Source: Candidatus Desulfobacula maris (GTDB lineage Bacteria > Desulfobacterota > Desulfobacteria > Desulfobacterales > Desulfobacteraceae). Taken from it: a stretch of 32,036 bases of DNA. The translations under genes and the position numbers were made by a program. The notes under the pieces were generated by a model, which was not told the origin of the DNA, did no database searches, and worked only from the letters and a program-made list of their open reading frames with translations. Shown in pieces: positions 1,624-17,994 of this stretch (within the stretch, counting starts at the first letter, position 1; every line of letters begins with the position of its first letter). The stretch lies in assembly GCA_014383445.1 (NCBI GenBank), contig JACNHV010000262.1:1-32036 (forward strand), in the 5' to 3' direction.

Positions 1624-1752
1624 CTTAAGGTCTCGTTTGTTCGATTTTGCCTCTCCCATGAGCGCTTAACAGCATATACAAAACAACTCAATAAACCCAT
1701 AAAAATCTGTAATTTAAGGCAATCGAATAGACTTAAGTTATGATTTCTTCTC

Positions 1753-1768: not shown

Positions 1769-1799
1769 ATGTAGTTCCCCAGAAAGGAGTTTGATTTGT

Positions 1800-2396: not shown

Positions 2397-2407
2397 GGAG
2401 AATTCAT

Positions 2408-2746: not shown

Positions 2747-2767
2747 ATCAATTGAAAAATTTTATGG

Positions 2768-2804
2768 ACAACTGGGTAAAAGCTGAAACCTTTTGCCCAG
2801 TTGT
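2768..2804 (+). other. strong intercistronic RNA hairpin
   Basis: ACAACTGGGTAAAAG (2768-2782) pairs with CTTTTGCCCAGTTGT (2790-2804): 14 Watson-Crick pairs plus one G-U, with a 7-base loop CTGAAAC. It lies between the DUF5320 gene and the receiver-like gene of the operon. No run of T follows (TATCACCG), so it is probably not a simple terminator. It may be an mRNA processing or stability element, or a partial attenuator setting different expression of the first two genes and the ATPase genes. Confidence 0.7.
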
Positions 2805-2828
2805 TATCACCGTGTAGGGAGTATTTAA

Positions 2829-3206: not shown

Positions 3207-3233
3207 ATTACGGTTACAAGGAGAATTAAACTG

Positions 3234-4981: not shown

Positions 4982-5021
4982 ATTTTTAAACAAAATGAAT
5001 TATTTAAGGAGTTAAACAAAC

Positions 5022-5408
5022 ATGAAAAACGGTAGAATTGCTATACCTTCCAACGGACAGGGCGGCCTTGACAGCACAAGAGCAGGACATTTTGGTCATT
5101 GTGACGTGTTTACATTTGTCGATGTTGAAGATGGTCAGATCAAACAGGTAACAACACTTCAAAACCAGGAACATGTCCAGGGCGGTTGCATGGTGCCGGT
5201 CAATCTTCTGGCCGACAACAAGGTCACGGCCCTGGTTGTGGGAGGTATCGGCATGCGCCCCTTAATGGGTTTCAGGCAGGTGGGCATTGATGTATACCAC
5301 GATGCCGAACGTGAGCAGATCAGACCCGTTGTTGAAGACCTTATTGCCGGCAGGCTTCCTGAAATCAAAAATGATCAGGTCTGCGGCGGTGGCGGCGGAC
5401 AGGTTTAA
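5022..5408 (+). CDS. NifX/NifB-like (dinitrogenase Fe-Mo cofactor family) small protein
   Basis: 128 aa, starting MKNGRIAIPSNGQGGLDSTR, with the family's HFGHCDVFTFVDVEDGQI segment and a VNLLADNKVTALVVGGIGMR core strand-loop. It belongs to the PF02579 family of small metal-cluster or cofactor carriers. It ends in a Cys-Gly-rich tail (VCGGGGGQV) that may bind metal. It has an excellent AAGGAG ribosome-binding site, lies 40 bases after the second ATPase gene and 23 before the next NifX/ORP gene. The exact cargo is unknown; by context, a partner of the two Fe-S ATPases. Confidence 0.8.
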   Translation: MKNGRIAIPSNGQGGLDSTRAGHFGHCDVFTFVDVEDGQIKQVTTLQNQEHVQGGCMVPVNLLADNKVTALVVGGIGMRPLMGFRQVGIDVYHDAEREQIRPVVEDLIAGRLPEIKNDQVCGGGGGQV

Positions 5409-5431
5409 ATATAAACATTAGGAGATTTATC

Positions 5432-5791
5432 ATGAAAATCGCAGTAACATCAAAAGGCCGGAATCTTGATTCAAAAGTGGACCCCAGATTCGGTCGTGCC
5501 GCTTATATCCTCATTATTGACACAGATACGCTTGAATTTGAAGTGGTTGATAATGCTAAAAATGCAAATTCCTTCAAAGGAGCAGGAATTCAGGCTGCTG
5601 CCAGTATCAGTGAAAAAAATGCTGAAGTTCTTTTGACAGGATTCTGCGGTCCCAACGCCTTTAAAACCCTGGATACGGCCAATGTTAAGGTGGTCAGTGA
5701 TGTTGCCGGTATAGTCAGGGATGCGGTCAAAAATTTTAATAAAGGGGACATTTCTTTTACAGATGCAGCAAACGTTGAGGGACACTGGTAA
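5432..5791 (+). CDS. orange protein (ORP)-like NifX-family protein
   Basis: 119 aa, essentially one PF02579 domain, close to the size of the Desulfovibrio orange protein (about 117 aa), which carries a Mo-Cu-S cluster. It starts MKIAVTSKGRNLDSKVDPRF and continues GRAAYILIID, a start typical of ORP-like members, and contains LLTGFCGPNAFKTL. The ribosome-binding site is TAGGAG. It is the last gene of the operon. ORP assignment rests on size, start motif and neighbourhood; a generic NifX-family cofactor carrier is the alternative. Whether it binds Mo-Cu cannot be told from sequence. Confidence 0.72.
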   Translation: MKIAVTSKGRNLDSKVDPRFGRAAYILIIDTDTLEFEVVDNAKNANSFKGAGIQAAASISEKNAEVLLTGFCGPNAFKTLDTANVKVVSDVAGIVRDAVKNFNKGDISFTDAANVEGHW

Positions 5792-5891: not shown

Positions 5892-6422
5892 ATGGAACTT
5901 ACTGATCTTGCCCCCCTTGAAGCGTGGGCACAAATAGAAAAAGAATCTTTTAAAAAATTCAACCTTCAAAGCTCTGTTTTTAATACAGATGGCATAAGAA
6001 TAACAGATACCAAAAACTGGGCTAACAAAATCTGCCCGGAAATCAAATCAACAGACAAAGGCCAGAGTTTTATCTGCGCCACTGCCCACATGAATCTGGC
6101 CAACCAGGCGAGACAGACAAAAAAACCGGTGATCGAGGAATGTGATGCAGGTCTGGTCAAAATTGTGATCCCCATTTTTATTGATGATGAGTTTTTAGGC
6201 GCTGCCGGAGGATGTGGACTACTGCTGGAAGGTGGAGAGGTGGATTTATTTTCAATTAATAAAATTACTGATATTGACGAGACAATAATAGAAAAACTTT
6301 CTGAAGAAATTCCTGTCATCCCCACCCAAACCGCTGAAACTATCCGTGACTTTTTCATGAAAAAAGTCAATACACTTGTCAGCAAATATCAGGAAACCAT
6401 TAATTCTCCGGTATTATTTTAA
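5892..6422 (+). CDS. stand-alone PocR-type ligand-sensing domain protein
   Basis: 176 aa consisting almost wholly of a PocR sensory domain, usually found fused to histidine kinases or AraC-type regulators. Conserved landmarks are NKICPEI (C48), FICATAHMNLANQA (C62), PVIEECDAGLVKIVIPI (C84) and LGAAGGCG (C108). The cysteines could bind a metal or act as a redox switch. There is no output domain, so it probably signals by protein contact. It has a good GAGAGGATATCA ribosome-binding site. It lies about 100 bases after the ORP operon, and its stop codon region overlaps by 9 bases the 3' end of the opposing receiver-PAS-kinase gene. Confidence 0.8.
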   Translation: MELTDLAPLEAWAQIEKESFKKFNLQSSVFNTDGIRITDTKNWANKICPEIKSTDKGQSFICATAHMNLANQARQTKKPVIEECDAGLVKIVIPIFIDDEFLGAAGGCGLLLEGGEVDLFSINKITDIDETIIEKLSEEIPVIPTQTAETIRDFFMKKVNTLVSKYQETINSPVLF

Positions 6423-7880
6423 AGGCAGGGTGACTATAAATTCAGTATATTTATTCAATTGAGAGTTAATAGTGATGGTTCCGCCATGTTGCTTGATGGA
6501 TCGTGATGCAATAAAAAGTCCCAGGCCTGTTCCTTTATTGCCTTTATCAGAAAAGAAAAGGTTGAATATTTTATCTTTTTTATTCTCGTCCAACCCTTTG
6601 CCATTATCTTTAATGGCAAAAATAATATGAGGGTCTTCAATGCGGATTAAAAAACTGATTTCACCCTTTTTCTTTTTTGATATGCAGGCATCAACAGCAT
6701 TTTCAAGAATACTGGAAAAGGCTGCTAAAACAGCCATTTTGTCGATATAAAGTGAAATAGTATTATGGGGGAAGTCTACTTTAAAATTAATATTTTCCTG
6801 ATCAGCTCTGGGTTTAATTGACGAAACAATTTCCTTTATCAGTTCCGGCAACAGGACGTGTGATCTGTCAGGTTCTCTTTTTTTGGTATGGAATAAAATA
6901 TTCAATACCATCTCTCTGGTTTTTAAAATTTTGTCCTTAACGATTTCCCAGCCTTCCGATATTTGCCGGGTGTCATTTTTATCCAGGCCGGACTCTATGA
7001 GATATGAACCACCGTCAAGTCCAGTTAAAAGCTGTTTAAGGCCATGGGAAACAGAACCGATATGAAGTCCGAGTGAGGCGAGGTGATCCTGAAGTTCACG
7101 GATCATTGTTACATCAGTGGACATCTCCATGACATGCTTGACCTGACCTTTTGAATCTGTAATAGCAGATGTCTGGATAAAAATATTGCGTACGCTTGAG
7201 TCTTTTAAAACAACATCCATTTCAGCAGTATGAGAGCCCTTGTCCTTGAATGTTTTTATAACAGGGCAATCAGGACAGGGAGAATTTCTGCCTTTATACA
7301 CATCATAACAGGTCATCCCTTCTTTATAATTGAAGTGCTCCTTGAATATCCTGTTTGTCTCTATAATAGTAAGATTTTTATCCTGTATCGTTAAATAACC
7401 TGGAGATTCGTTAAACAGCTGAATATATCTTTTTTCAGATTCTGCAAGTTTTTGGGTTTTCTCTTTAACAAGCTTTTCAAGGTCTTTTGTATAGGTCAGG
7501 ATTTTTTTTCTTGTGTCTATCCTGTCATGGGCTCTTTTCAGTGCTATATCCAGAACATCATTATCAACAGGCTTTGAAATAAAATCAATGGCATCAAGCT
7601 TTAAGCTTTCAATGGCAAGCTTAAAATCACCATGTCCTGTAATCATAATAACTTCAGTATCAGGACTGTTCTTTTTTATATGTTTCAGCAGCGAAACACC
7701 ATCCATCCCCGGCATTCTGATATCGGTCAGAACGATATCAAAAAAATCCCAGTCGATTTTTTCAGCCGCTTTTTTCCCGTTATCAGCAGTAGAAACTTCA
7801 TATCCAAGATCCTGCAAATAGATTGTCAGAACTTTTCTAATACCTTCTTCATCATCCACAAGCAAAACTTTCGCTGCCAT
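6414..7880 (-). CDS. hybrid receiver-PAS-histidine kinase
   Basis: 488 aa, soluble. Receiver at 1-120 (acidic pair D9/D10, phosphoacceptor D53, K103), coiled linker about 120-150, PAS about 152-262, H-box around H279 (GSVSHGLKQLLTGLDGG), HATPase_c with N394, DNGKG 425-429 and GTGLGL 450-455. The PAS carries a cysteine triad, C191, C202 and C205 (CPDCPV), shared in pattern with other sensors here. The H-box is of the same unusual type as in the 389-aa kinase at 9798-10967. It is the last gene of the tmc-led operon, 19 bases after a receiver gene, and converges on the PocR gene with a 9-base overlap. The phosphotransfer partner is unknown. Confidence 0.9.
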   Translation of the reverse strand: MAAKVLLVDDEEGIRKVLTIYLQDLGYEVSTADNGKKAAEKIDWDFFDIVLTDIRMPGMDGVSLLKHIKKNSPDTEVIMITGHGDFKLAIESLKLDAIDFISKPVDNDVLDIALKRAHDRIDTRKKILTYTKDLEKLVKEKTQKLAESEKRYIQLFNESPGYLTIQDKNLTIIETNRIFKEHFNYKEGMTCYDVYKGRNSPCPDCPVIKTFKDKGSHTAEMDVVLKDSSVRNIFIQTSAITDSKGQVKHVMEMSTDVTMIRELQDHLASLGLHIGSVSHGLKQLLTGLDGGSYLIESGLDKNDTRQISEGWEIVKDKILKTREMVLNILFHTKKREPDRSHVLLPELIKEIVSSIKPRADQENINFKVDFPHNTISLYIDKMAVLAAFSSILENAVDACISKKKKGEISFLIRIEDPHIIFAIKDNGKGLDENKKDKIFNLFFSDKGNKGTGLGLFIASRSIKQHGGTITINSQLNKYTEFIVTLPLK

Positions 7881-7899
7881 AATGGTTGTCCCTATTCAA

Positions 7900-8328
7900 T
7901 TATTCCGGTTCAAGACCATTCCCCAATACACATTTTTTAATAATCTCTTTAAGATATTCAGAATCGGCATCTTTTGCAACAAAAATTGCCGGTTCAGGGA
8001 TATCGTGTTCAAGATTAATATTCAACATTTTTATATGGTGAAAAAATGCTTTGCGATCAACCCCTGAAAAGAAAATAATGGGTATGGTTTTAAATTCAGG
8101 ATGGGTTACAAGTTCCTGGTAGACGATGGCTCCCCCTTTTTTAGGCATCATGATATCCAGAATAATAGCGGAAGGCTTGATTCGGGTTAAGGTATCAAGC
8201 CCCTGCACACCATCTTTTGCCAATACAGGATCAAACCCCAAAGATTTGACAAGACTCATGAGATAAAATCTCATTTGAATCTCATCCTCCATGATGAGAA
8301 TCCTATGTCTGCATTTTTCCCGGGACAT
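7900..8328 (-). CDS. single-domain response regulator
   Basis: 142 aa receiver domain (ILIMEDEIQMRFYLM) with phosphoacceptor D58 (ILDIMMPKKGG). The switch Lys appears as AKD near K119 rather than the usual KP. No output domain. It lies 11 bases after the UspA gene and 19 before the receiver-PAS-kinase. No convincing ribosome-binding site precedes the annotated ATG (AT-rich TTTAAAAAAA), so the start could be the internal ATG at residue 13. Presumably it passes phosphate between kinases in this operon or acts by protein contact. Confidence 0.82.
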   Translation of the reverse strand: MSREKCRHRILIMEDEIQMRFYLMSLVKSLGFDPVLAKDGVQGLDTLTRIKPSAIILDIMMPKKGGAIVYQELVTHPEFKTIPIIFFSGVDRKAFFHHIKMLNINLEHDIPEPAIFVAKDADSEYLKEIIKKCVLGNGLEPE

Positions 8329-8339
8329 TTTTTTTAAAT

Positions 8340-9254
8340 TTACAATCTGTCCGGCCTGTTCACACTGGCGACAGGACAGGCTGATCTTAAAACCACTTGT
8401 TCGACTGTTGTTCCAAGAAGTGCTTCGTCAGGGTCAATATCCCTTGTATGATGGGCCATGACAATCAGATCGCCACTGGTTTCCCTTGCAAATTTTAACA
8501 GTTCCACATAGGGAACGCCTTCCCATATGGAAATCTCGTAATTATCAAAATCATTCATTTGAGAAACATACTCTTTTTCAAGTCTTGCTCTAGCAGCCGC
8601 TATCTTATCCTCTATTGATTTTTGCCCGGGTGAAACGCCAGCCTGGGAAGTATCAATATCAAGGGCATGGAAAAGATAAAGCTTGCATCCAATAGATTCT
8701 GCCATTTTAAAGGCGAATTTAAATGCAGACATGGAGGCCTTTGAAAAATCAGTTCCAAAAATAATTTTATTAAAATACCAGAAACAGGTTGCACATGGCC
8801 TGCTGATGATAAGGACCGGACACCTGGCTCTTTGGGCTACTTTCTGCATTGTAGTCCCCACGATACCCCTGAATCTTGCCGCCCCGGTTTCATCGGCTCT
8901 TGTGTGGGAGCCCATTATGATGCAGTCAATTTCCTCTTTCCTGGCAAATCTTAAGATCTCTGTTGAAGGAATACCTGCAAGAATTTCAAACCTTGGTTCT
9001 CCATGCTTCTCAATGAGTGTTGCATAGGTGTTTTTCATCTCATCCTTGACCCACTCAACATAGTCAGGCCCTGCATCATCTTTTTCTCCTGTCAGATAAT
9101 CAGTTATAGAGAAACTGCTTCCATGGGAAGGAACACCAAATACATGATAAAGGATCAATTCCGATTTGTATTTCTCGGCAAGTTCAAAAGCGATTTTAGC
9201 AGCCGCATCACAGGCCGGAGAAGCTGTTGTGGCAAAAAGTATTTTTTTAAACAT
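8340..9254 (-). CDS. tandem-domain universal stress protein (UspA family)
   Basis: 304 aa from the ATG at 9254, chosen because AAGGAGG lies directly upstream; a longer reading frame adds only 7 residues. Two Usp folds: about 1-152 (FKKILFATTASPACDAA to PVLIISRP) and about 163-304 (NKIIFGTDFSKASMSAFKFA to PVASVNRP). Each has an alpha/beta nucleotide-binding core with GSHTR...GIVGTTMQ and AHHTR...LLGTTVEQV segments, which suggests ATP binding. The stop codon of the preceding 178-aa gene lies inside its Shine-Dalgarno, so the two are translationally coupled. I recall a UspA gene also accompanying tmc genes in Desulfovibrio. Confidence 0.92.
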   Translation of the reverse strand: MFKKILFATTASPACDAAAKIAFELAEKYKSELILYHVFGVPSHGSSFSITDYLTGEKDDAGPDYVEWVKDEMKNTYATLIEKHGEPRFEILAGIPSTEILRFARKEEIDCIIMGSHTRADETGAARFRGIVGTTMQKVAQRARCPVLIISRPCATCFWYFNKIIFGTDFSKASMSAFKFAFKMAESIGCKLYLFHALDIDTSQAGVSPGQKSIEDKIAAARARLEKEYVSQMNDFDNYEISIWEGVPYVELLKFARETSGDLIVMAHHTRDIDPDEALLGTTVEQVVLRSACPVASVNRPDRL

Positions 9255-9256
9255 AA

Positions 9257-9793
9257 TTACCTCCTTATTGAACATTCTAACGGGTTAAAATTAAAAGAAA
9301 GTTCCCAGGCAATGCCTTCCACAAGTTCAAAAAGAGTGTAAAAGGTCTCATACTGGAAAACATCCTCCTTATCCCCAAAAACAACATGTTTTAATTTCCC
9401 GAGTTTTAATTTGTGATTCAATAAATCTTCCAAATGGAAAAACTTTAAATCGATCATCTTTTTGTTGGATACTCCTTTCAAAGTGGTATAAAAATTCAAG
9501 CGTGGGCTTCCTGGAAATCCTTCTATTTCAATCGTTTTATAAAATAGCAATGATTCTAATTCTTTGTTTTTAAATCCTGAACTGCAATTTTTGGAAATAA
9601 TTTCAAGAAGTGCTTCCAATATTTCGCTTATGTTTTTCAGATCCGGATACTGGTTGACCATCATAAAAAAGGAACTCAAGGTAAAGCTTTCATCAATTTC
9701 GATATAGTTTCCTAATATTTTCAGAACGGAGATGGTGAGTTTTTTACCTTTTTTTTTAATAACACCGTTTTTATGAAGAAAAATTTTTTCCAT
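9257..9793 (-). CDS. hypothetical protein in tmc regulatory cassette
   Basis: 178 aa, no family recognised. It is hydrophilic with no signal peptide, membrane segment or cysteine motif (one Cys near residue 90, one near the end). The start MEKIFLHKNGVIKKKGKKLT is strongly basic and the rest is Leu/Phe/Lys-rich and mixed helical. The ATG lies 4 bases after the preceding receiver-kinase gene and the TAA stop lies within the ribosome-binding site of the UspA gene, so it is firmly embedded in the operon. A role as an adaptor or phosphotransfer partner of the surrounding kinases is possible but unsupported. The reading frame is clearly real from its tight packing. Confidence 0.7.
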   Translation of the reverse strand: MEKIFLHKNGVIKKKGKKLTISVLKILGNYIEIDESFTLSSFFMMVNQYPDLKNISEILEALLEIISKNCSSGFKNKELESLLFYKTIEIEGFPGSPRLNFYTTLKGVSNKKMIDLKFFHLEDLLNHKLKLGKLKHVVFGDKEDVFQYETFYTLFELVEGIAWELSFNFNPLECSIRR

Positions 9794-9797
9794 GAGT

Positions 9798-10967
9798 TTA
9801 AAAGCCCCTTTCTTCGACTTTGCTCCTTAACGGGATTTTAACAACAAACAGGGTGCCTTTTCCCTTCTCAGAACTAAAATGTATTTCCCCATCATGTTCT
9901 TCTACTATTTTTTTGGTAGTCATCAAACCGAAACCGGTTCCGTTCATCCCCTTGGTGGTAATAAAGTCTTTTAAAATAGATTTTTTTATGGTGTCGTTAA
10001 TGCCGCAGCCATTATCCTGGACCTTGTACACAATATTGTTATTCTCTTTTTCAACAATAATATTTACGTTTTTGATCTGATCGGGATTCGCAATTTTATT
10101 AAAAGAATCAAACGCATTGACTACAAGATTTAAAATGCAATTGTGTATCGCATCACAGTCCATGAAAACCAGTCTTTTTTCCATACAGGGCAAAAGTTTA
10201 AAAATGATATTTTCTTCTTTTGCCCTGTGGTTCATCAGCTGCATCACCTCTCTTACCGGTTTATTGGGATTTTCCAGTTTGAAATCCAGTTTTGTTGTTT
10301 TGGCATAGTTTAAAAGATCCAGGGAGAGTTTGGTAATTTTATTTATATTCCCTTTCATCATTTCCCAGCCCTGTTTTAAATATTCACGATTTTCAAGCTC
10401 GATTCCCTGTTCCAGAACAAAAGAACTTCCCTTAAGACCTCCTGCAATATTTTTAATTGCATGGGACATGCCGGCAATTGTCTGGCCGATTGTCACAAGT
10501 TTTTCAGATTCATTTATTTTTTTGTCTTTTTCCTTTACAAGACTTTCCAGATCATCCATATAGCTGTTTATATTCTGGCTTATGGAGATACGCTCCTGTG
10601 CTTTTTTTATTGCTGATTCAAGGTCCCCGATATCAATGGGTTTGGTTATGAAATCTGCTGCTTCATGTTGAAGGCTTTTAACTACCAGATTCATGTCGCC
10701 ATGACCGGTTATCATAATAACCTCTGTTTCAGGATTCAGGTCTTTAATTCTCTTCAGGACCTCAATGCCGTCAATACCAGGCATTTTAATGTCTGTTATG
10801 ACAATACAGGGATTTTTTTCTATAAAGGTTTTAAGCCCTGTCTCACCGTCAGATGCAAGGCATACATCATACCCGGATGATTCAAGGGTAATTTTCAAAA
10901 CTTTGCGGATACCTGCCTCATCGTCGACAAGAAGTATTTTATTGTTTTCCATGGCCTTGACGTTCAT
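9798..10967 (-). CDS. hybrid receiver-histidine kinase
   Basis: 389 aa, soluble. Receiver about 8-125 (DDE, phosphoacceptor D59, K109 in FITKP), coiled linker about 130-160, dimerisation/H-box around H169 (AGMSHAIKNIAGGLKG), HATPase_c with DNGCG 318-322 and GTGFGL 343-348. No PAS domain. The AGGAGT ribosome-binding site favours the first ATG; its start abuts the stop codon of the 760-aa kinase (TAA then ATG). The same operon encodes a membrane c-heme sensor kinase, so this protein probably acts as an intermediate in a branched phosphorelay. It resembles the 488-aa kinase but lacks its PAS. Confidence 0.9.
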   Translation of the reverse strand: MNVKAMENNKILLVDDEAGIRKVLKITLESSGYDVCLASDGETGLKTFIEKNPCIVITDIKMPGIDGIEVLKRIKDLNPETEVIMITGHGDMNLVVKSLQHEAADFITKPIDIGDLESAIKKAQERISISQNINSYMDDLESLVKEKDKKINESEKLVTIGQTIAGMSHAIKNIAGGLKGSSFVLEQGIELENREYLKQGWEMMKGNINKITKLSLDLLNYAKTTKLDFKLENPNKPVREVMQLMNHRAKEENIIFKLLPCMEKRLVFMDCDAIHNCILNLVVNAFDSFNKIANPDQIKNVNIIVEKENNNIVYKVQDNGCGINDTIKKSILKDFITTKGMNGTGFGLMTTKKIVEEHDGEIHFSSEKGKGTLFVVKIPLRSKVEERGF

Positions 10968-13250
10968 TTAATACTCCTTCAGGTTTTTATAAAAACTAAT
11001 GGTGAAGGTAACACCACCTTCAGGATTATTCGTGACACAGATATCTGCACCAGATTCCTTTATGATTCCATAACTGATAGATAATCCCAGACCGGTTCCC
11101 TTTCCCACTTTTTTGGTCGTGAAAAAAGGTTCGAAAATCTTGTTCATATCTGCTTTTGAAATTCCCGTTCCCGTATCTGATATTCTAACAATAACATCAC
11201 CCTTGGTAAATGAAGTGGCAATGGTGATCCGTTTTGCTTTCCCATTTTGGTCTCCACTGGTTTCAACCCTGGCCTCTATGGAATCTCTTGCATTAATGAG
11301 AAGATTGATGAAAACCTGCTCCAGACGAGCCGGATCAGCGATTATTTCGGGAAGATTTTCATCAAGTTTCCATACAACCTCAATCTCTCGCAATTTTAAT
11401 TGCTGGCTGAAAATGTCAAAAGCCCTTTGAATGGTTTCATTTATATTGACAGCTTCCTTTGAAAGCGTTGATTTACGACCAAACAAACGCATGTGGTTGG
11501 TAATCTTTGAAGCCCGGTCCACATGGATTTCAATTTCCTGAGACAGAGTGTTTAAAATCTCCTGATCAATTTTTTCATTTCTGCTTATTTTCCGGGATAT
11601 AAAACTTGAAGCAGTTTTAATGACAGATAATGGTTGGTTAAGTTCATGTGCCACTCCTGTTGCCATTTCTCCCAAAGTCGCCATTTTACCGGCCTGAATT
11701 AACTGGTGCTCTGTTTCAACTGACAGGGTTATGTCAACCACTGTAACAAGCAGTACTTTTTGTTCTGTAAACTCAGCAGGACTGACCCAGATATTTACAT
11801 AGATAGTCTCCAGGTTCTTCTTATGATTTATTAATCGTTCATGAAGCGGATTATCAAAATTTTGCTTGAATTTTTCAAACTCCTCTGGTTCTGGGAAAAG
11901 AAAAGAAAAATGCTTATCTTTCAACTCATCTTTTTTAAAACCATATACAGTCAGAGCACTGTTATTGCAGTTCATGATCGTATAGGTATCAATATCCAAA
12001 ATAAACACGGGATTGGGAATACTCTCAAAAATCGCCTGGTATTTTCGTTCGGACTCTTTGACATTCTTTTCTAGTTTTTTTCTTCGGGAAATATCAATGG
12101 TCATTTCCATGGCAGCTATGATATTTCCCTGGTCATCTTTTAACGGTGCTGTTTTCACAAACCAGTGGGCAATCGTTCCATCCTTGTTTATTCCGGACTC
12201 TTCACTGAAATGGGATTTACCGTCAATAAATGTTCTTTCAACCGGACAGTCATTACATTTGTTGATCAAGTTTTTGTAGGCAACATAACAGCGGTCACCA
12301 TATTCAGGATTGAATTTTTTTGAAAATTCCTTATTAAATTCAATCAGTTCATAGTCTCGGTTTTGAACTGTAATGGCACAGGGAACCTGATCAAAGAGAT
12401 TCTGGTATCTGCGTTTTTGGTTATTAAGTTCATCCTGTTTGTTCTGAATTTTTTCCCCCATAACCAGAATGGCAAGGGATAACTTCCCGATTTCATCTTT
12501 CTGGATCACATTTTTTATATTGTTTTGATAACTTCCTTTTCCGATACGATCTGTTTCTTTTATTAATTTTTTGATGGGATTGGTTACCAGACGGAAAAGA
12601 CTAAAGCCAATCGTTATTGCCAGGATTATAAAAAGATAAATGGCTGTCCAGACGGACATTTTTTTTGTAAAACTGATTTCAGCCTTTACATCTTTTAAAG
12701 AAACCACAACATCAAGGGCTCCAAGTTTTTTTATTCCTTCAGGATGATAATGGCATTGGGTAGTTGAGCAGGAGGGTTCATTTAATATGGGGTTCATAAT
12801 ACCCAGCAAAAATTCATCCTGATCTGATTTAAATATTCTGACTCTGTCCTTGATATCTTTTCGAATGATTGCCGTCTCTGTTGCATGACAAGTTTTACAG
12901 GCCATATCTGTTTTTTCAACCATAGAGCCAAGTTCCATGGCCATATTTGAGAACTTAATCTGCCCCTGACAATTAAAAATTCGTATGGCTTCAATTTCAT
13001 TGTACTCTGACATGCTTTTTAAAATTTTTTGCATATCCTTGTTTGGATTATGCAACATTGCAAACCAGGTAAAATTCAAAACCGTGTTACAAAATTTATC
13101 AACCTCAGATATTTTTTTATTTATCAGGGTTTTTTCCTGAAATATAGTGGTAAAATAGGACCAGATAAAGATGCTTGCAAAAAGCACGATGCCTACAGAA
13201 ATCATAAGCTTTAATGCAAGACTCTCTATTTTTATGAAAGATTTAAACAT
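10968..13250 (-). CDS. membrane-bound c-type-heme sensor histidine kinase
   Basis: 760 aa. First membrane helix about 13-35, periplasmic sensor about 36-198, second helix about 200-221, HAMP about 222-275, PAS about 285-390, PAS about 403-510, HisKA with H535 (GVAHELNQP), HATPase_c with DTGTG 692-696 and GTGLGL 718-723. The periplasmic domain contains a canonical heme c site CKTCH (118-122) and a CSTTQCH (161-167), a CX4CH variant, so it likely senses redox state or a gas through covalent heme. The first PAS has a cysteine triad, C321, C332 and C335 (CNDCPV). It follows tmcA and a receiver gene, so it plausibly monitors the periplasmic cytochrome c pool that feeds Tmc. Confidence 0.92.
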   Translation of the reverse strand: MFKSFIKIESLALKLMISVGIVLFASIFIWSYFTTIFQEKTLINKKISEVDKFCNTVLNFTWFAMLHNPNKDMQKILKSMSEYNEIEAIRIFNCQGQIKFSNMAMELGSMVEKTDMACKTCHATETAIIRKDIKDRVRIFKSDQDEFLLGIMNPILNEPSCSTTQCHYHPEGIKKLGALDVVVSLKDVKAEISFTKKMSVWTAIYLFIILAITIGFSLFRLVTNPIKKLIKETDRIGKGSYQNNIKNVIQKDEIGKLSLAILVMGEKIQNKQDELNNQKRRYQNLFDQVPCAITVQNRDYELIEFNKEFSKKFNPEYGDRCYVAYKNLINKCNDCPVERTFIDGKSHFSEESGINKDGTIAHWFVKTAPLKDDQGNIIAAMEMTIDISRRKKLEKNVKESERKYQAIFESIPNPVFILDIDTYTIMNCNNSALTVYGFKKDELKDKHFSFLFPEPEEFEKFKQNFDNPLHERLINHKKNLETIYVNIWVSPAEFTEQKVLLVTVVDITLSVETEHQLIQAGKMATLGEMATGVAHELNQPLSVIKTASSFISRKISRNEKIDQEILNTLSQEIEIHVDRASKITNHMRLFGRKSTLSKEAVNINETIQRAFDIFSQQLKLREIEVVWKLDENLPEIIADPARLEQVFINLLINARDSIEARVETSGDQNGKAKRITIATSFTKGDVIVRISDTGTGISKADMNKIFEPFFTTKKVGKGTGLGLSISYGIIKESGADICVTNNPEGGVTFTISFYKNLKEY

Positions 13251-13277
13251 TACACCTGATCCCTTTTTCCCTTTTTG

Positions 13278-13628
13278 TTAATTTAACAATTCCGCGACCT
13301 TGGTCAAAACCTCTTTAGGATCAAAAGGTTTTCCAAAGGAAGCAGCAGCTTTTGGAATTGAATATTTAATTCCTGTAAGGCCGCTGATTACGATAACCGG
13401 TATATCAAACCCTTTTATTTTACTGATTTTTCTAAAAAATCTTGGTCCCCACTCTTCAGGCATTTCAAGATCCAGAGTGATGAGGTCAGGATTTTCATTT
13501 TTATAAGTATCAAAAGCATTTTTGCCATCCTTTGCAATACAGGTTTCATACCCGTTATCTTTAAAAAGGGTGTCAAGATATTTGGTAATAGCTGGATCAT
13601 CATCTACAATCATAATTTTTTTTGTCAT
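13278..13628 (-). CDS. single-domain response regulator
   Basis: 116 aa from the ATG at 13628, which follows a GTGAGG ribosome-binding site overlapping the tmcA stop codon; a longer frame would run 20 residues back into tmcA and is unlikely. Receiver with acidic DDD 9-11, phosphoacceptor D53 (TLDLEMP) and K100 in FGKPF. No output domain. Its position between tmcA and the heme sensor kinase suggests it is the kinase's receiver partner. Confidence 0.88.
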   Translation of the reverse strand: MTKKIMIVDDDPAITKYLDTLFKDNGYETCIAKDGKNAFDTYKNENPDLITLDLEMPEEWGPRFFRKISKIKGFDIPVIVISGLTGIKYSIPKAAASFGKPFDPKEVLTKVAELLN

Positions 13629-13635
13629 AACAACC

Positions 13636-14025
13636 TCACTTTTTGATATGGCATTCACCACATAAAACCGGTCCTTTGTTAGATTCAAAATGACACTCTT
13701 TACACTGTTTATGAAACGCCATTCTTAAAGGAATTGCGTTTTCGGGTGTTGGTTTTAAAAAGTGGCACTCAGAACACAAATAGTCCTCAGAGGACTCATC
13801 CTTAATCAATTTTTTGTTTTCATACACATGATGGCAGATGGAACAGTCATCTTCCAACATTGCTTTTTCATTATGATCATCATGATCAAACACAGCGGCA
13901 GATCTTTGGGGATGATCAAAAACTATATTGTCAATCGTTGGAATTTCTTCCCGGGAGTAAGCATAAAATGCAGTTATAATAAGTATGACGGCTGACATAA
14001 ATATTAATCGTTTTAGTTTCATCAT
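13636..14025 (-). CDS. tmcA: TmcA, type II tetraheme cytochrome c3
   Basis: 129 aa periplasmic cytochrome. The signal sequence is about residues 1-24 (KLKRLIFMSAVILIITAFYA). Four heme c sites: CSICH 61-65, CSECH 84-88, CKECH 108-112, CGECH 122-126, with further histidines for bis-His ligation. In Desulfovibrio this acidic cytochrome accepts electrons from the periplasmic type I cytochrome c3/hydrogenase pool and passes them to the Tmc membrane complex. Next to tmcB, C and D, the assignment is firm. The start may be the first or second Met. It is the last structural gene of the tmc set here, followed at once by a receiver gene. Confidence 0.93.
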   Translation of the reverse strand: MMKLKRLIFMSAVILIITAFYAYSREEIPTIDNIVFDHPQRSAAVFDHDDHNEKAMLEDDCSICHHVYENKKLIKDESSEDYLCSECHFLKPTPENAIPLRMAFHKQCKECHFESNKGPVLCGECHIKK

Positions 14026-14040
14026 AATCGCCTTTCCATG

Positions 14041-15399
14041 TTAACTGTCTTTCTGGTAAATTGTCTTTTCCATGACTTCAAAAATTATGTCCCCCAAAAA
14101 TTTAATCTCCATCTTCAGGCCATAATGATGAACAATATCTTCAAGCCCGGAGTGGCAGTTATGACAGGGTGCAATCAAAACCTGGGCCCCTGTTCTTTCA
14201 AGCTGTTCTTTCTTTTCTCTGTTATTGATCATTCTGGACCCTTTCCAGGGAGGACCGCAGTTAATAACGCCACCACCAGCCCCACAACAATAATTATGTT
14301 CCCTGTTAGGAGTCATTTCAATAAATGATTCGCACAATATGTTTACTATTTCCCTGGCTTTATTGTGCAGCCCTCTCCCGCGGGAAACATTGCAGGGGTC
14401 ATGCAGGGTAACGGTTTTTTTATATTGTTCCTTTACCTTGATCCGGCCGGAAGTTAAAAGATCATGATAAAAGTCAATGGCATGAACAAGATCCACGGGC
14501 GGCATGGCCCATCCAACCCACCTGTTTCCCACGTCATACACTGATCGGAACGCATGGCCGCATTCTCCCATGACAATTTTTTTGACATGTAATTTTGTCG
14601 CTGTTTCATAATGCGCCCGGGCAATTCTGCCGGATATTTCAAAATCACCCGTAAACATGGCCATATTGCTGTTATCCCAACCGGGTGTGGAGGGCATGGT
14701 CCAATCCAGGCCTGCTGCATGCATGATCACGGCTGTCTGGTAAATAAGCCCGGCCTGGAATTTGGGCTCAGGAGCAATCACCGAATACATGATGTCAGCA
14801 CCGTCCTTGTCCAGGGGAATTCTTAAATTTTCAAATTCCTCTCTTGCGTCTTCTTCCTGCCATTGAAGCGTGTCGATCCACTCATCTTCTTTCACCCACA
14901 TCTGGTTCATGGTAGCGGAATGGGAATTTACTGTATCCTGGATATAAAGCGGCGTAATTTCAAGTTTGTGGCAGATCCGTCGCACCAGGGTCATCATATA
15001 TGCGATATCAATGCCGAACGGACAGTACATGGAACACTTTTTACAAACATTGCATTCCGTATGGGCAATTCTCACCACATCCTTTAATAATTGTTTTGAG
15101 ACCTTTCCTTTTTTGTTAATCATTTCCAGAATGGTCTGTTTGACTTTTCCTGCAGGTGAAAGTTTTGGATCGCGGTCATTAGAAAGGAATATGCTGCAGG
15201 CATCGGCACACAGACCACAGCGCATGCAGGTTTCCACATAAACCTTAAAGCGTGCGCCCGTTTCCTTTGTCAATACCTGATTGATGACTGTGGATATTTT
15301 TTCAGGCGTAAGCCTTGCCAATCCCTTTTCAACACCTTCATCAATGACATCTTTTTTGTTTGATTCAGGCTTTTCATTTGTGGTTAATGTTTCCTGCAT
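14041..15399 (-). CDS. tmcB: TmcB, HdrD-like cytoplasmic iron-sulfur subunit (CCG domains)
   Basis: 452 aa. Two [4Fe-4S] sites near the N-terminus (C58, C61, C64, C68 and C116, C119, C122, C126). The C-terminal part has CCG-type cysteine motifs: C336 (HDPCN), C371-C372 (NYCCGAGGG) and C412/C415 (APCHNC), the ligands for the noncubane [4Fe-4S] site of heterodisulfide-reductase-type subunits. It forms the cytoplasmic catalytic subunit of Tmc, probably exchanging electrons with a thiol/disulfide or a soluble carrier. It is paralogous to HmcF at 25288-26697. AAGGAG precedes the ATG; 15 bases to tmcA. Confidence 0.93.
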   Translation of the reverse strand: MQETLTTNEKPESNKKDVIDEGVEKGLARLTPEKISTVINQVLTKETGARFKVYVETCMRCGLCADACSIFLSNDRDPKLSPAGKVKQTILEMINKKGKVSKQLLKDVVRIAHTECNVCKKCSMYCPFGIDIAYMMTLVRRICHKLEITPLYIQDTVNSHSATMNQMWVKEDEWIDTLQWQEEDAREEFENLRIPLDKDGADIMYSVIAPEPKFQAGLIYQTAVIMHAAGLDWTMPSTPGWDNSNMAMFTGDFEISGRIARAHYETATKLHVKKIVMGECGHAFRSVYDVGNRWVGWAMPPVDLVHAIDFYHDLLTSGRIKVKEQYKKTVTLHDPCNVSRGRGLHNKAREIVNILCESFIEMTPNREHNYCCGAGGGVINCGPPWKGSRMINNREKKEQLERTGAQVLIAPCHNCHSGLEDIVHHYGLKMEIKFLGDIIFEVMEKTIYQKDS

Positions 15400-15419
15400 G
15401 AATATCTCCTTAAAATGGT

Positions 15420-16079
15420 TTACCAGTCTTTTGCATGCCTGACACTACCAAATTCAGAGCCCGTATACGCTCTGGTAAATGGTGCCATAAACATATGAAA
15501 AAACCGTGTAAAAGGTATCAGAATAATCATCAGTTCTCCTGATAGGACATGGACGATAACCATCCATTGATAAGCAAAGAACTGGTGGTAGGCTAAAAAT
15601 CCGGTAACAAACGGGAGGGCCACGATCAGAATAAAACCAAAATCTGATAGTTTTGTTAAAAAATTGACTTCCGGAACGACAATTCTTCTGATGATAAAAA
15701 ACAATAATGAAAATATGACAATAAGGGTTAGGATATCGGCCACTGCGTCATTCATCGTAAACCATGACCACTGCATTGATTCTTCTAAAAGTGCAACATG
15801 GGACAATAAAAAAATCGGGATTAAAAAAAGCAGCAGATGGAACACATAGGAGATGCCGTAAAAAACAGGGCTCTTCCTTGTGCTGACAGGTAAAAATGGT
15901 ATGAGCCAGGCAAATATAGACCTGAAGCTGTATTTAAACGACATGTAAGTGTAGATAAAATTTTCTCGTTCATTGACCAGTTTGATCACCTGAAAAAATC
16001 TGAATATAACGCCAATGAAAAATATCAGAAATGAGATCCAGACCATGGGACCCATAATAAAATTGATAAAAGAATGCAT
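15420..16079 (-). CDS. tmcC: TmcC, membrane cytochrome b subunit (NarI/DsrM-like)
   Basis: 219 aa integral membrane protein with about five to six hydrophobic helices (around 5-28, 70-97, 112-132, 143-163, 169-192). Histidines in VFHLLL, LLSHVA, VHVLSGE and RFFHMF are the probable axial ligands of two b hemes, as in NarI, DsrM and HmcE. It should carry electrons across the membrane between TmcA and TmcB, with possible quinone interaction. GAGGAG ribosome-binding site; 10 bases after tmcD and 20 before tmcB. Confidence 0.92.
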   Translation of the reverse strand: MHSFINFIMGPMVWISFLIFFIGVIFRFFQVIKLVNERENFIYTYMSFKYSFRSIFAWLIPFLPVSTRKSPVFYGISYVFHLLLFLIPIFLLSHVALLEESMQWSWFTMNDAVADILTLIVIFSLLFFIIRRIVVPEVNFLTKLSDFGFILIVALPFVTGFLAYHQFFAYQWMVIVHVLSGELMIILIPFTRFFHMFMAPFTRAYTGSEFGSVRHAKDW

Positions 16080-16089
16080 AATTTCTCCT

Positions 16090-17346
16090 CTAAAGAACTT
16101 TGTCTAAAGTCAGTATCTGTCTTAAATAAATGCCGTTTTTCATAGCCTTTAAAAGAATCTTATCATTATCCGGACTGATCTGTGGCTCAAAGATCATATC
16201 AAATCGTTCCTGATAAACCTTGCCATTGACAACCAGATAAAAAATGCCCTCTTTTTCCATTCGGGTGGCCAATATTTCGCTGTTGGAACTTACAATCGGA
16301 TTCCACAGTTTGTCTGCCTTGAGGTTCCAGGGTTTTCCATTGACGGCAATATCCCAGAATCCCTGGTCCTTAAAAACCGCCACTAGTGAATCTCCATTGT
16401 CAGAGTAAAAAAGCGTTGATATCATTGAATCACAGTGGAGAGCCCAGGTTCTGTCATTTTCTGAAACAGTCCATTTTCCATAGCGGTCAGAAACGATGGC
16501 GGCAATTTTCTTTCCATCTCCATGAATCGCCAATTGACCGAACTGTTCATAACTTTTGTCCCAGAAAGGGGCTTCATCTTTAAAAAGGAACCATTTACCA
16601 CCCTGTCTGACGGGCGCTATCACAGATGTGTCCTTATTAATAAATTCAGGTTTCCAGGCAAATTGGAAATTTTTTTCCCAGGCTTGACTGTTTTTAGATA
16701 TGGAGTAGTCAATACGATTTTTTCTGATAGAAGATGCAACCTGCTTCCCTTTGCTGTCAAAGGACAGATCCCAGATATTCATGAACTTTTCAGGCTGGGC
16801 AATACCATCAACCGCTATTGAAAAAATGCCCCGGCTGAAACCCTCAATATCGCCCTGACCCAGGGGTTCCACCTGGACAATGGCTGCTGAAGTGCCCTGG
16901 CAGCTTAAGACCACACCGGATATGTTATCATAAAGTTCGTCCCACATCCTGTCATTGACAGCCATTCCATACTGCCCGTCCTTTTGAACGGCTGCCCCCA
17001 TAAATGATCCATCCGGGCTAAATTGAAAATCCCAGATATAATCAAACCGTGTTTCCCAGAAAGAGCCGTTTACACAGACTGTCCATTCTTCATCCTTGCA
17101 TACAAGTGCGGTAAGATTTCCATTCGACAAAAATCTTAGGCCCCAGGCTTTTTCAAACGTTTCTTCCCAGATTTCTCCATTCACGCAGGCACTGAATTGG
17201 GCTTCATCCAAATTCACGATGGATGCGATTTTTTCTCCATCAGGACTGACACTAAGCTCTTCCACCCAGTTAAAGCGCTCTTGCCATTCTTTTACCGGAA
17301 TTTCTTTTTTTTCTGAATCCCAATCCCATGGTTTTTTGTTTATCAT
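16090..17346 (-). CDS. tmcD: TmcD, WD40-like beta-propeller protein
   Basis: 418 aa with no signal peptide or membrane helix. It is built of about eight to nine degenerate repeats of 40-50 residues carrying a V(N/D)G..W...(F/Y)...W pattern (for example VNGEIWEETFEKAWGLRF and VNGSFWETRFDYIWDFQF) separated by SPDG turns. This is the WD40-like/TolB-like propeller described for TmcD, the Trp-rich subunit of the Tmc complex, whose exact role is unknown. CCGGAGATG precedes the ATG. Here tmcD is the first structural tmc gene, whereas it is last in the Desulfovibrio order I recall. Confidence 0.9.
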   Translation of the reverse strand: MINKKPWDWDSEKKEIPVKEWQERFNWVEELSVSPDGEKIASIVNLDEAQFSACVNGEIWEETFEKAWGLRFLSNGNLTALVCKDEEWTVCVNGSFWETRFDYIWDFQFSPDGSFMGAAVQKDGQYGMAVNDRMWDELYDNISGVVLSCQGTSAAIVQVEPLGQGDIEGFSRGIFSIAVDGIAQPEKFMNIWDLSFDSKGKQVASSIRKNRIDYSISKNSQAWEKNFQFAWKPEFINKDTSVIAPVRQGGKWFLFKDEAPFWDKSYEQFGQLAIHGDGKKIAAIVSDRYGKWTVSENDRTWALHCDSMISTLFYSDNGDSLVAVFKDQGFWDIAVNGKPWNLKADKLWNPIVSSNSEILATRMEKEGIFYLVVNGKVYQERFDMIFEPQISPDNDKILLKAMKNGIYLRQILTLDKVL

Positions 17347-17378
17347 TTTTCATCTCCGGTTTTATTTTAGTTAATGTT

Positions 17379-17411
17379 TGACCGAAAACTCAAACACAGA
17401 GTTTTCGGTCA
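17379..17411 (-). other. perfect hairpin between the leading receiver gene and tmcD
   Basis: TGACCGAAAACTC (17379-17391) and GAGTTTTCGGTCA (17399-17411) pair perfectly over 13 bp with a 7-base loop. One arm contains the stop codon of the upstream receiver gene (17409-17411). Beyond the hairpin on the - strand the sequence (AACATTAACTAAAATAAAACC) lacks a real U-run. It could be an attenuator, an RNase barrier or processing site that makes tmcDCBA mRNA levels differ from the leading receiver gene, or a leaky terminator. Confidence 0.7.
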
Positions 17412-17804
17412 GGCACTAGTTAAATGGTCCCTATTGATTTGACAAAGAATATCCTCAATGGATGCGACACTCAGAGGCTTTTCCAAAAATGCGTCAATTC
17501 CCGCCATTGATATTTCCTTTTTAAGTTCATCAGTTACGATTGTTGCCATCAAGACCCTTGTTATTCCAGGTTTTTGAATGGCTGCCTGCTTTAAAAAAGT
17601 CAACCCATCCATATCAGGTAGAAAATAATCAGAAATAACAACATCAATATCCTGATATTTAAGGGAATTAAGACCCTCAGATGCTGATTTGAATATCAGG
17701 AACCTTAACTGCCCGTTGGCAAAAAATGTACTTAACGATTCCCTGACATATTTGTCATTATCTATGAGCATGATCTGTAATATTTTTGTCTGTTCTTTTC
17801 CCAT
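17409..17804 (-). CDS. single-domain response regulator leading the tmc operon
   Basis: 131 aa receiver (IMLIDNDKYVRESLSTFF) with phosphoacceptor D59 (VISDYFLPDMDG) and K109 (FLEKP). No output domain. It is the first gene downstream of the sigma-54 promoter at 17844-17859, with a short leader of about 29 bases and a modest GGCGGAA ribosome-binding site. A 13-bp hairpin lies between it and tmcD. As a DNA-binding-free receiver it probably acts as a phosphate relay or sink in the tmc signalling network. Confidence 0.88.
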   Translation of the reverse strand: MGKEQTKILQIMLIDNDKYVRESLSTFFANGQLRFLIFKSASEGLNSLKYQDIDVVISDYFLPDMDGLTFLKQAAIQKPGITRVLMATIVTDELKKEISMAGIDAFLEKPLSVASIEDILCQINRDHLTSA

Positions 17805-17843
17805 AAATTTCCGCCAGAGTTTATTTTAATTTAAAACAATTAG

Positions 17844-17859
17844 AGCATTAAACATGCCA
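17844..17859 (-). promoter_or_regulatory. sigma-54 (-24/-12) promoter of the tmc operon
   Basis: On the minus strand, TGGCATGTTTAATGCT matches 15 of 16 positions of TGGCAYRNNNNTTGCW, with the exact GG-N10-GC spacing. Predicted start near 17833, 29 bases before the ATG at 17804. The upstream 160 bp is AT-rich with repeated motifs suited to activator binding, and an NtrC-type activator is encoded directly upstream on the same strand. Confidence 0.82.
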
Positions 17860-17900
17860 GTGATATGAGATGGTGTGGTTTTGTTTAAATTACAGCGGGT

Positions 17901-17994
17901 TGTAAAAAAAATCGTTTATTTGGATTGTGTAAAAAATTGGAAAACTTCAAATAATAGTTAGAAGATTTAAGAAATTTAGAAATTTTTAGAAGAT
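17901..17994 (-). repeat. short direct repeats upstream of the tmc sigma-54 promoter (possible activator sites)
   Basis: TTAGAAGAT occurs twice (17958-17966, 17986-17994; 28 bp apart) with a further TTAGAA at 17976-17981, and TGTAAAAAA occurs twice (17901-17909, 17928-17936; 27 bp apart). They lie about 45-150 bp upstream of the -24 element, where sigma-54 activators usually bind. The region is very AT-rich, so chance similarity is possible. Confidence 0.35.

Follow-up and report, generated by a model that had tools for sequence, protein, structure and literature searches.

We found that the tmc genes of Candidatus Desulfobacula maris lie within a run of twelve contiguous genes on the minus strand, from the receiver gene RR3 (start at 17804) to the kinase gene HK1 (end at 6414), in the 32,036-nt stretch of contig JACNHV010000262.1 that was analysed as a whole and is called the window here. 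The regulators among them are most likely a two-component module that senses redox state through c-type haem and is coupled to complexes of the CCG/HdrD type, with haem binding, phosphotransfer and targets predicted from the sequence. In our best explanation, mechanism included, an ordinary tmcDCBA set and a conserved, portable two-component module would be expressed from a sigma-54 promoter, an account that we hold tentatively, belief and doubt being almost balanced. To our knowledge, how sulfate reducers fit the direction and amount of Tmc/Hmc electron flow to the supply of hydrogen and sulfate is largely open. The module is tied to Tmc/Hmc in Desulfovibrionaceae and Desulfobacterales, and its kinase, most versions of which have two periplasmic haem motifs, would make the question of flow control directly testable.

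Layout of the operon and order of the tmc genes

From 5' to 3', the genes read RR3-tmcDCBA-RR2-HK3-HK2-UNK-Usp-RR1-HK1:

17409 to 17804, minus strand: RR3, stand-alone receiver, first gene of the operon (Pfam Response_reg, 1.1e-15)
16090 to 17346, minus strand: tmcD (NF045725, 509 bits, cut-off 440)
15420 to 16079, minus strand: tmcC, membrane anchor (NF045723, 296 bits, cut-off 240)
14041 to 15399, minus strand: tmcB, iron-sulfur/CCG protein (NF045724, 807 bits, cut-off 735; CCG domain)
13636 to 14025, minus strand: tmcA, tetrahaem cytochrome c3 (NF045722, 150 bits, cut-off 114)
13278 to 13628, minus strand: RR2, stand-alone receiver of the DVU0259/DivK family (NF045717, 176.3 bits, cut-off 160)
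10968 to 13250, minus strand: HK3, membrane kinase with periplasmic PAS/Cache-like domain, HAMP, PAS, HisKA and HATPase
9798 to 10967, minus strand: HK2, receiver-kinase (REC-HK, Pfam)
9257 to 9793, minus strand: UNK, conserved protein and marker of the module (no Pfam/NCBIfam match; AF2 pLDDT 88)
8340 to 9254, minus strand: tandem Usp (Pfam Usp, two stretches)
7900 to 8328, minus strand: RR1, stand-alone receiver (Pfam)
6414 to 7880, minus strand: HK1, receiver-PAS-kinase (REC-PAS-HK, Pfam)

The intergenic gaps are, in order of transcription, 62, 10, 20, 15, 7, 27, 0, 4, 2, 11 and 19 nt, where the 7 nt between tmcA and RR2 presume an ATG start of RR2 at 13628 and the 2 nt between UNK and Usp would become an overlap with an upstream Usp start. 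We moved the RR2 start from TTG 13688 to this ATG, which would remove an overlap with tmcA. The layout claimed by the original prediction, twelve genes on one strand with junctions of at most 27 nt and a single exception of 62 nt, was thus borne out. The same is true of its gene set, since Pfam and NCBIfam together gave four tmc genes, three kinases (two of them with an N-terminal receiver), three stand-alone receivers, a tandem Usp and one protein without a match, and TmcA, TmcB, TmcC and TmcD each exceeded their curated cut-off. The twelve genes presumably form one transcript. Scanning the operon returned 41 sigma-70-like sites (33.4 +/- 5.5 in shuffles) and 14 terminator-like sites (8.8 +/- 3.0 in shuffles), counts that give no clear ground for splitting it. 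A hairpin had also been proposed in the 62-nt gap between RR3 and tmcD, and it is present there. Its conservation did not hold: at this junction the mechanically called genes of six of eight relatives overlap or lie at most 2 nt apart, and the gaps of the other two (66 and 37 nt) lack the hairpin. As it is not conserved in relatives, a role as attenuator was dropped.

The order of the tmc genes had been described as reversed, and comparison with relatives led to the opposite view. D-C-B-A was found in 39 of 66 tmc loci of one set and in 59 of the 72 named loci with TmcC, within 80 of 350 confirmed named matches; most of the remaining loci of both sets have part of it (DCB). A-B-C-D was seen in neither set (66 loci; 72 named loci with TmcC), the two sets overlapping in part (L019 and L112, for instance, are on contigs of equal length and layout). 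D-C-B-A is therefore the usual tmc order, Desulfovibrionaceae included; a reversed order is ruled out, and the idea of a conserved partnership in a rearranged order loses its second half. D. vulgaris Hildenborough, which lies outside the 80 named loci, has tmc locus tags running from A=0263 to D=0266 in a table of PMC10920352. According to the accessible part of PMC4215793, hydrogen oxidation is impaired in tmc mutants of D. alaskensis G20.

A portable set of regulators

That tmc genes stand beside kinases, receivers and UspA is already in print: the accessible part of PMC5109826 describes tmc with response regulators, a universal stress protein and histidine kinases in D. vulgaris Hildenborough (DVU0263-0266) and at the tmc1 locus of Desulfococcus multivorans, where Hmc genes adjoin tmcA1 and the arrangement is likened to that of D. 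vulgaris. The loci agree with ours in this respect, and another D. vulgaris gene, DVU0259, names the receiver family whose cut-off RR2 exceeds. In contrast, haem motifs in a kinase, portability and a sigma-54/repeat promoter are not mentioned in that part of PMC5109826.

To follow the regulators across genomes, UNK was used as marker; relatives' genes were called mechanically and labelled by their best BLAST hits to the window proteins. The PDB held no convincing solved relative of UNK (best E 0.35 by sequence and 0.11 by fold), so that structure suggests no function for it. UNK was found in 112 of 389 genomes of the order, our own included. Among the best 60 of these 112, Usp was next to UNK in 57 neighbourhoods, RR1 followed Usp in 54, and 47 had tmc and/or hmc genes on that strand at a distance of at most 8 genes. 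The 60 divide into 23 with tmc alone, 19 with hmc alone, five with both and 13 with neither, and of these 13, five (L053, L054, L064, L065 and L084) are short contigs or reach a contig end. In L061 the module sits after HdrABC-like genes (Pfam), and in L066 it is beside an Orp-like cluster. A CCG-type protein is common to partners of the module, namely TmcB, HmcF and, in L061, an HdrB-like protein.

Of the 274 genomes of the order that are positive for TmcD, 175 lack UNK, and Tmc thus does not need the module. TmcD presence means here a match at E of at most 0.001, which 2 of 14 control genomes reach as well; 239 of the 274 exceed the cut-off. Another TmcD search matched 45 of 395 genomes, of which 40 were fetched, leaving out our own genome, G028, G065, G227 and G292. 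Conversely, of 13 UNK-positive genomes without TmcD, HmcF was over its cut-off in nine, below it in two and absent from two. As judged from these neighbourhoods, the regulators are a conserved, portable module that is not dedicated to Tmc. The partnership put forward originally therefore stands, with 47 of 60 neighbourhoods holding tmc or hmc, and its dedication to Tmc falls with the hmc and HdrABC-like contexts. It could be argued further that the regulators serve another target altogether, Tmc being a mere neighbour in some lineages, as the Hmc, HdrABC-like and Orp-like contexts and the lack of UNK in most TmcD-positive genomes would suggest; since 47 of these best 60 neighbourhoods hold same-strand tmc or hmc genes, and five of the other 13 are truncated, we consider such hitch-hiking quite improbable.

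The sigma-54 promoter and its likely activator

Upstream of RR3 lie the following features:

17844 to 17860, minus strand: sigma-54-like -24/-12 promoter CTGGCATGTTTAATGCT, recurrent in relatives
17958 to 17991, minus strand: enhancer-like TTCTAA repeats, 104, 122 and 132 nt upstream of the -24 element
18018 to 19424, minus strand: NtrC-type sigma-54 activator (REC-AAA-Fis, Pfam), outside the operon
19421 to 21061, minus strand: HK4, kinase (weak GAF match, HisKA, HATPase; Pfam), paired with the activator

Taken alone, the promoter claimed in the original prediction is not beyond chance, the sigma-54 consensus at up to 3 mismatches giving 24 matches where 23.2 were expected. Its recurrence supports it: the site is present in all eight close relatives with RR3 (at least 54% identity) and in one of 123 other tmc upstream regions (59 of 3600 in the control). 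It was not found at threshold in L087, whose RR3 is 31% identical. In nine upstream regions of 200 nt each, TTCTAA was counted 19 times against 3.15 expected from first-order Markov shuffles, as the best of all hexamers and in sequences that are related to each other. The repeats stand at matching positions in several relatives, and enhancer-like repeats are present in most and missing in L068. Each of the nine genomes that have the RR3 operon encodes the activator or a homologue of it (67-100% identity), the gene adjoining the operon in only three. A GG-N10-GC element, upstream repeats and an activator in the genome, the parts of a system of sigma-54 and NtrC-type activator, are thus all present here, and the protein at 18018-19424 is the likely activator of the operon. 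The Orp-side activator is not favoured as regulator of this operon, because no TTCTAA/TTAGAA hexamer is near the Orp-side sigma-54-like site at 1752.

A regulon defined by the repeats was rejected for our own genome, since the pattern (up to one mismatch) was found in 42 places, fewer than the 88 of a backwards control. Among 20 places fetched, only two overlapping ones, at tmc, had a sigma-54 site behind the repeats, the sigma-54 pattern used for these 20 covering part of the mismatch forms. A search in front of the HdrA-like gene in L061, and of its counterpart in L058, returned no sigma-54 site. In L065, L070 and L071, a site directly precedes HK3, versus L066, where it is missing and the best activator match in the genome reaches 44%; this suggests that the promoter travels with the module.

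The putative haem-c sensor kinase and its relay

HK3 carries two periplasmic motifs, CXXCH at residues 118-122 and CX4CHxH at residues 161-169, and the conserved periplasmic CXXCH expected of a haem-c sensor is thus present in the window protein. Both motifs (CXXCH and CX3-4CHxH) recur in 56 HK3 homologue rows of at least 38% identity. In the aligned set, filtered at 38% identity and at least 600 aa, which places three haem-less homologues of about 500 aa outside, both motifs are kept in 51 of 53 and the HisKA histidine in 53 of 53; under the same filter, HK2 directly follows HK3 in 52 of 54 rows. Five apparently whole homologues (L081, L087, L110, L111 and L187) lack the haem domain, so that the module can exist without it; six others, cut by the locus edge, were not judged, and three rows are C-terminal pieces of split genes. 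In L037, L043 and L045, the gene that immediately precedes tmcD codes for a diverged kinase with the same two motifs (about 30% identity over the sensor region); these three are the only ones to carry them among 18 distant HK3-labelled kinases (below 38%). The kinases after or near tmcA in L177 and L186 are without haem motifs.

The AF2 model of the HK3 sensor has a PAS/Cache-like fold, of moderate confidence (pLDDT 77.6, and 53-60 around the motifs). Its best solved relatives in Foldseek were receptor domains of sensor kinases. Weak matches were obtained to 3b42 (8e-4, sequence profile), which we take to be GSU0935, and to 3b47, titled GSU0582 (1.9e-3, Foldseek). These Geobacter chemotaxis proteins share a periplasmic PAS-like domain, presumably with c-type haem, and HK3 differs from them by its kinase output and two conserved haem motifs. 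Assuming that both chemotaxis sensor domains are haem proteins, HK3 might be a gas sensor of the haem-c PAS type for oxygen, NO or CO, in a stress-response module that shuts or opens Tmc/Hmc while Usp reports stress, and that Usp belongs to the module would fit. However, two motifs with a CHxH extension seem to resemble redox haems more than gas-sensing ones, and the association with electron-transfer complexes is strong, so this role is unlikely. We favour redox sensing, and HK3 may read redox state outside the cell membrane.

For the relay itself, the receiver aspartate motifs are conserved in alignments of RR1, RR2, RR3, HK1 and HK2 filtered by identity and length. Pfam detected HisKA in HK3 and no HisKA match in HK1 or HK2. 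The phosphorelay of the original prediction therefore keeps its conserved kinase histidine and receiver aspartates, whereas a strict His-Asp-His-Asp chain is unproven, no HPt domain being matched by Pfam among the 20 window proteins scanned. RR1 falls short of the DVU0259/DivK family (NF045717, 63.8 bits, cut-off 160).

No Pfam DNA-binding domain was detected in the twelve operon proteins, UNK being without family match, and no Rrf2 HTH domain among the 20 window proteins scanned. The only DNA-binding outputs stand upstream, in the NtrC-type activator, or in relatives: in nine named loci (within 80 of 350 matches), an Rrf2 DNA-binding domain is fused to an RR2-like receiver divergent from tmcD, as judged by Pfam on three loci and by N-terminal sequence on all nine. 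Descriptions of this fusion or of the HK3 haem motifs were not met in the literature searched, which extended to few subscription papers. Rrf1 is a response regulator. The rrf1 and rrf2 genes of D. vulgaris adjoin Hmc and are named regulators of hmc expression in the accessible part of PMC10924467; in this they resemble the present regulators, with the difference that the window proteins scanned include no Rrf2. Phosphorylated receivers, Usp and UNK could instead bind or gate Tmc/Hmc directly, NtrC and HK4 alone setting transcription, which the missing DNA-binding domains and the separate activator exerting sigma-54 control would accommodate. The receiver-Rrf2 fusion and the hmc regulators point rather to transcription, and we regard such a post-translational relay as rather unlikely.

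In the transcriptional scheme that we prefer, HK3 would span the membrane, attach two c-type haems to its periplasmic PAS/Cache-like domain and read how oxidised or reduced the cytochrome c3 pool of the periplasm is, a pool on which Tmc and Hmc also draw. Via HK3/HK2 the signal would reach RR2, RR1 and the receiver of HK1. RR2 would act on transcription via an Rrf2-type DNA-binding partner, a link suggested by the fusion of a similar receiver to an Rrf2 domain in some Desulfovibrionaceae and relatives; which partner could serve in this genome is a guess, and the stand-alone DVU0259-type receiver would gain Rrf2 as a likely output. The partners of RR1 would be UNK and the tandem Usp. Expression of the operon in this lineage would be turned on by an NtrC-type protein, most likely the activator described above, and the cell would retune the amount of its transmembrane electron-transfer complexes to periplasmic redox state. 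The more specific version, a portable di-haem-c module that senses c3 redox, plugs into Tmc, Hmc or HdrABC-like complexes and gives its output through an Rrf2-linked receiver and a branch of Usp and UNK, is possible and somewhat doubtful; if true, it would give sulfate reducers a redox control dedicated to electron flow across the membrane. In L172, a Usp-REC-Usp fusion immediately follows tmcA.

Operon layout and tmc gene order

Two operons of the window, a 4.85-Mb draft genome in 400 contigs being its source, encode transmembrane complexes named by curated NCBIfam models (RR, stand-alone receivers; HK, kinases; Usp, tandem Usp protein; UNK, conserved protein of unknown family):

17804 to 6414, minus strand: twelve genes in the transcription order RR3-tmcD-tmcC-tmcB-tmcA-RR2-HK3-HK2-UNK-Usp-RR1-HK1; TmcA, TmcB, TmcC and TmcD all above cut-off
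25288-31542, minus strand: second operon, Hmc, with HmcA, B, C, E and F, all over cut-off

The gene coordinates bore out the predicted run of twelve same-strand genes, with all junctions at 27 nt or less except that of RR3/tmcD (62 nt). HmcD was not called in the Hmc operon; it could lie in the 171 nt that separate HmcE from HmcC. RR2 was originally listed from a TTG at 13688; we infer that the ATG at 13628 is to be preferred, a choice that removes the overlap with tmcA. The RR3/tmcD gap holds a perfect hairpin lacking a U run (17365-17408, minus strand), which was not conserved in the relatives compared. A gene at 5892-6422 (plus strand), whose product we take to be PocR-like, is convergent with HK1, the two genes overlapping by 9 nt, and a gene resembling it also follows HK1 in loci L101 and L104.

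Gene order was surveyed in 100 neighbourhoods, 40 found by TmcD and 60 by UNK, of which 66 contained tmcD and/or tmcC. The order was D-C-B-A in all 39 loci with tmcA called on the same strand as tmcD, one of them with an extra tmcA-like gene on the opposite strand; the remaining tmc loci were mostly D-C-B, some with an additional tmcB, and A-B-C-D was found in none of the 66. Among 80 named loci (of 350 confirmed matches), 72 contained TmcC, ordered DCBA (59), DCB (9), CB, CA, DCBAB and ADCBA (1 each). These included Desulfovibrionaceae: DCBA was found in Solidesulfovibrio (L129), Pseudodesulfovibrio (L144, L152) and Desulfovibrio cuneatus (L145), and DCB, with tmcA not called, in Humidesulfovibrio (L118). 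The tmcDCBA order of the window is thus ordinary, prevailing in both sets with no ABCD, and the original prediction of a reversed order did not hold. The D. vulgaris locus tags quoted in one source run from tmcA = DVU0263 to tmcD = DVU0266 (PMC10920352). The A-B-C-D order of the original prediction was probably this numbering, the D. vulgaris strand itself lying outside the loci compared. A further TmcB paralogue stands immediately before tmcD in L013, L016, L017, L018 and L022.

The regulator module and its partners

UNK, used as the module marker, was present in 112 of 389 Desulfobacterales genomes; TmcD was found in 274 at E <=0.001 and in 239 above the family cut-off. At E <=0.001, 99 genomes had both proteins, 13 UNK only, 175 TmcD only and 102 neither, counts for which a Fisher value gives no clean probability since the genomes are related. 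Of the 13 UNK-only genomes, 9 had HmcF above cut-off, two (G564, G626) had it below cut-off and two (G742, G552) lacked it. In the best 60 of the 112 UNK neighbourhoods, the gene after UNK was Usp in 57 and RR1 followed Usp in 54. Counting up to eight genes away on the strand of UNK, 23 neighbourhoods had tmc alone, 19 hmc alone, 5 both and 13 neither. HK2 came directly after HK3 in 52 of 54 cases (35/36, 2/2, 15/16). The predicted regulator partnership is therefore real and conserved, yet not exclusive to Tmc, and its supposed dedication to that complex fell away.

Among the 13 neighbourhoods without tmc or hmc, five lie on short contigs or reach a contig end (L053, L054, L064, L065, L084); the others are L058-L061, L066, L070, L071 and L085. 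L058-L061, from same-genus genomes, have an extra Usp and RR2 and then the module. Ahead of these, Pfam identified three gene products in L061: a flavoprotein that resembles HdrA and carries 4Fe-4S domains, a 4Fe-4S protein, and an HdrB-like protein with a CCG domain. L058 is laid out alike, the Pfam test covering L061. Because a CCG domain is shared by TmcB, HmcF and the HdrB-like protein, CCG/HdrD-type electron transfer is suggested as the common theme of the partners. The L085 neighbour tested gave a 4Fe-4S match and no CCG match. The UNK model was confident (pLDDT 88.1), and neither sequence nor fold search found a solved relative.

An Orp-like cluster with a sigma-54 activator occupies 248-5791 (plus strand), with products that we presume to be MinD-like and NifB/NifX-like. 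Orp-like genes also lie close to the module or to tmc in L011, L033, L040, L042, L044, L054, L055, L066, L093, L138 and L152, L044 and L138 being apparently one contig.

The published tmc1 locus of Desulfococcus multivorans comprises, besides Hmc, genes for three response regulators, four kinases and a universal stress protein, and is said to resemble the Pereira 2006 operon of D. vulgaris (PMC5109826). As described there, it is like the window in setting tmc beside Hmc genes, receivers, a universal stress protein and kinases. As far as the literature searched shows, four things are new: the two haem motifs of HK3, the portability of the module, which is found with Tmc, Hmc or HdrABC-like genes, the Rrf2-receiver fusion and the putative sigma-54/repeat promoter accompanying the module.

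Haem-motif kinase and receivers

On our reading, and from long helices in the model, two membrane segments seem to flank a periplasmic domain in HK3. We aligned 53 HK3 sequences including that of the window (at least 38% identity and 600 aa). Of these, 51 had both C118-xx-C-H and C161-x(3-4)-C-H-x-H, and all 53 had the HisKA histidine. With the length filter off, both motifs were found in 56 homologue rows and not in 14, of which 6 were cut by the locus edge, 3 were C-terminal pieces of split genes with the motifs in the other piece, and 5, apparently whole, were missing the haem domain (L081, L087, L110, L111, L187). The putative haem sensor is thus the common form of HK3, not the sole one. 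Immediately before tmcD in L037, L043 and L045 lies a diverged kinase (28.7-30.0% identity to HK3 over the sensor region) with the same two motifs; none of the remaining kinases labelled by HK3 at <38% identity, 15 in number, has them.

The AlphaFold2 model of the sensor was PAS/Cache-like and of moderate confidence, with a mean pLDDT of 77.6 and values of 53-60 around the motifs. Its top solved Foldseek matches were integrative models of WalK and of a chemoreceptor, along with sensor-kinase receptor domains, GSU0582 ranking 22nd (E 1.9e-3); the sequence profile picked up HAMP domains for the most part, with a weak match to 3b42 (E 8e-4). From its gene place and motifs, HK3 may sense the cytochrome c3 pool. 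The PAS_4 stretches of HK1 (6414-7880) and HK3 (10968-13250), both on the minus strand, carry CPDCP and CNDCP motifs, that of HK1 being kept at 75% or more in its homologues.

RR2 passes the DVU0259/DivK cut-off and RR1 fails it. In nine named loci (L112, L113, L115, L116, L117, L118, L120, L121, L135) an RR2-like receiver protein (50-63% identity to RR2) is divergent from tmcD. Pfam found Rrf2 plus receiver in all three tested (L112, L117, L120), and all nine share the Rrf2-type N-terminal sequence. Four of the records are named Desulfovibrio, Humidesulfovibrio or Desulfocurvus; the other five bear only Deltaproteobacteria, Desulfovibrionales-level or Proteobacteria names. According to one account, hmc expression is regulated by rrf1 and rrf2 (PMC10924467). 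The window's own genome has three Rrf2 proteins above cut-off; the best is 40% identical to the fused domain, and the convergent gene beside it has, by eye, a receiver-like start. In L172 a single Usp-REC-Usp protein immediately after tmcA ties Usp to a receiver.

Predicted sigma-54 promoter and activator

18018-19424, minus strand: NtrC-type activator gene (REC-AAA-Fis)

The sigma-54 promoter originally predicted before RR3 was, on the window sequence alone, within chance expectation; what upheld it was recurrence. An element scoring at least 6 was found upstream of RR3 in 8/8 close relatives (RR3 identity 54-88%), in 1/123 other tmc upstream regions and in 59/3600 random stretches, and was absent before RR3 of L087 (31%). 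By this comparison across relatives, the predicted element is beyond chance. In nine upstream regions of 200 nt each, TTCTAA/TTAGAA was counted 19 times vs 3.15 expected. It lies at -132, -122 and -104 in the window, and several relatives, L068 not among them, have it at similar positions.

The same element (score 7) also stands immediately before HK3 in L065, L070 and L071, with no RR3 and no tmc beside the module (L065 soon reaches a contig end). The promoter thus tracks the regulator module and not tmc. One repeat hexamer each precedes HK3 in L065 (-131) and L070 (-129), and none in L071. No element was found in L066 (best score 4) or before the HdrA-like gene of L061 and its L058 counterpart (best 4 and 3).

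An activator homologue (67-100% identity) was present in 9/9 genomes with the RR3 operon, its gene adjoining the operon in just three of them (the window, L056, L072). Best matches elsewhere were 68% in G755 (L070) and G739 (L071), 51% in G752 (L065) and 44% in G732 (L066). These findings favour the NtrC-type protein as the regulator without establishing it. In L055 an MTHFR-like gene (48-962, minus strand), divergent from RR3, has its own sigma-54 element and four upstream TTCTAA/TTAGAA hexamers, some maybe common to the RR3 promoter; it is a possible further target of the activator.
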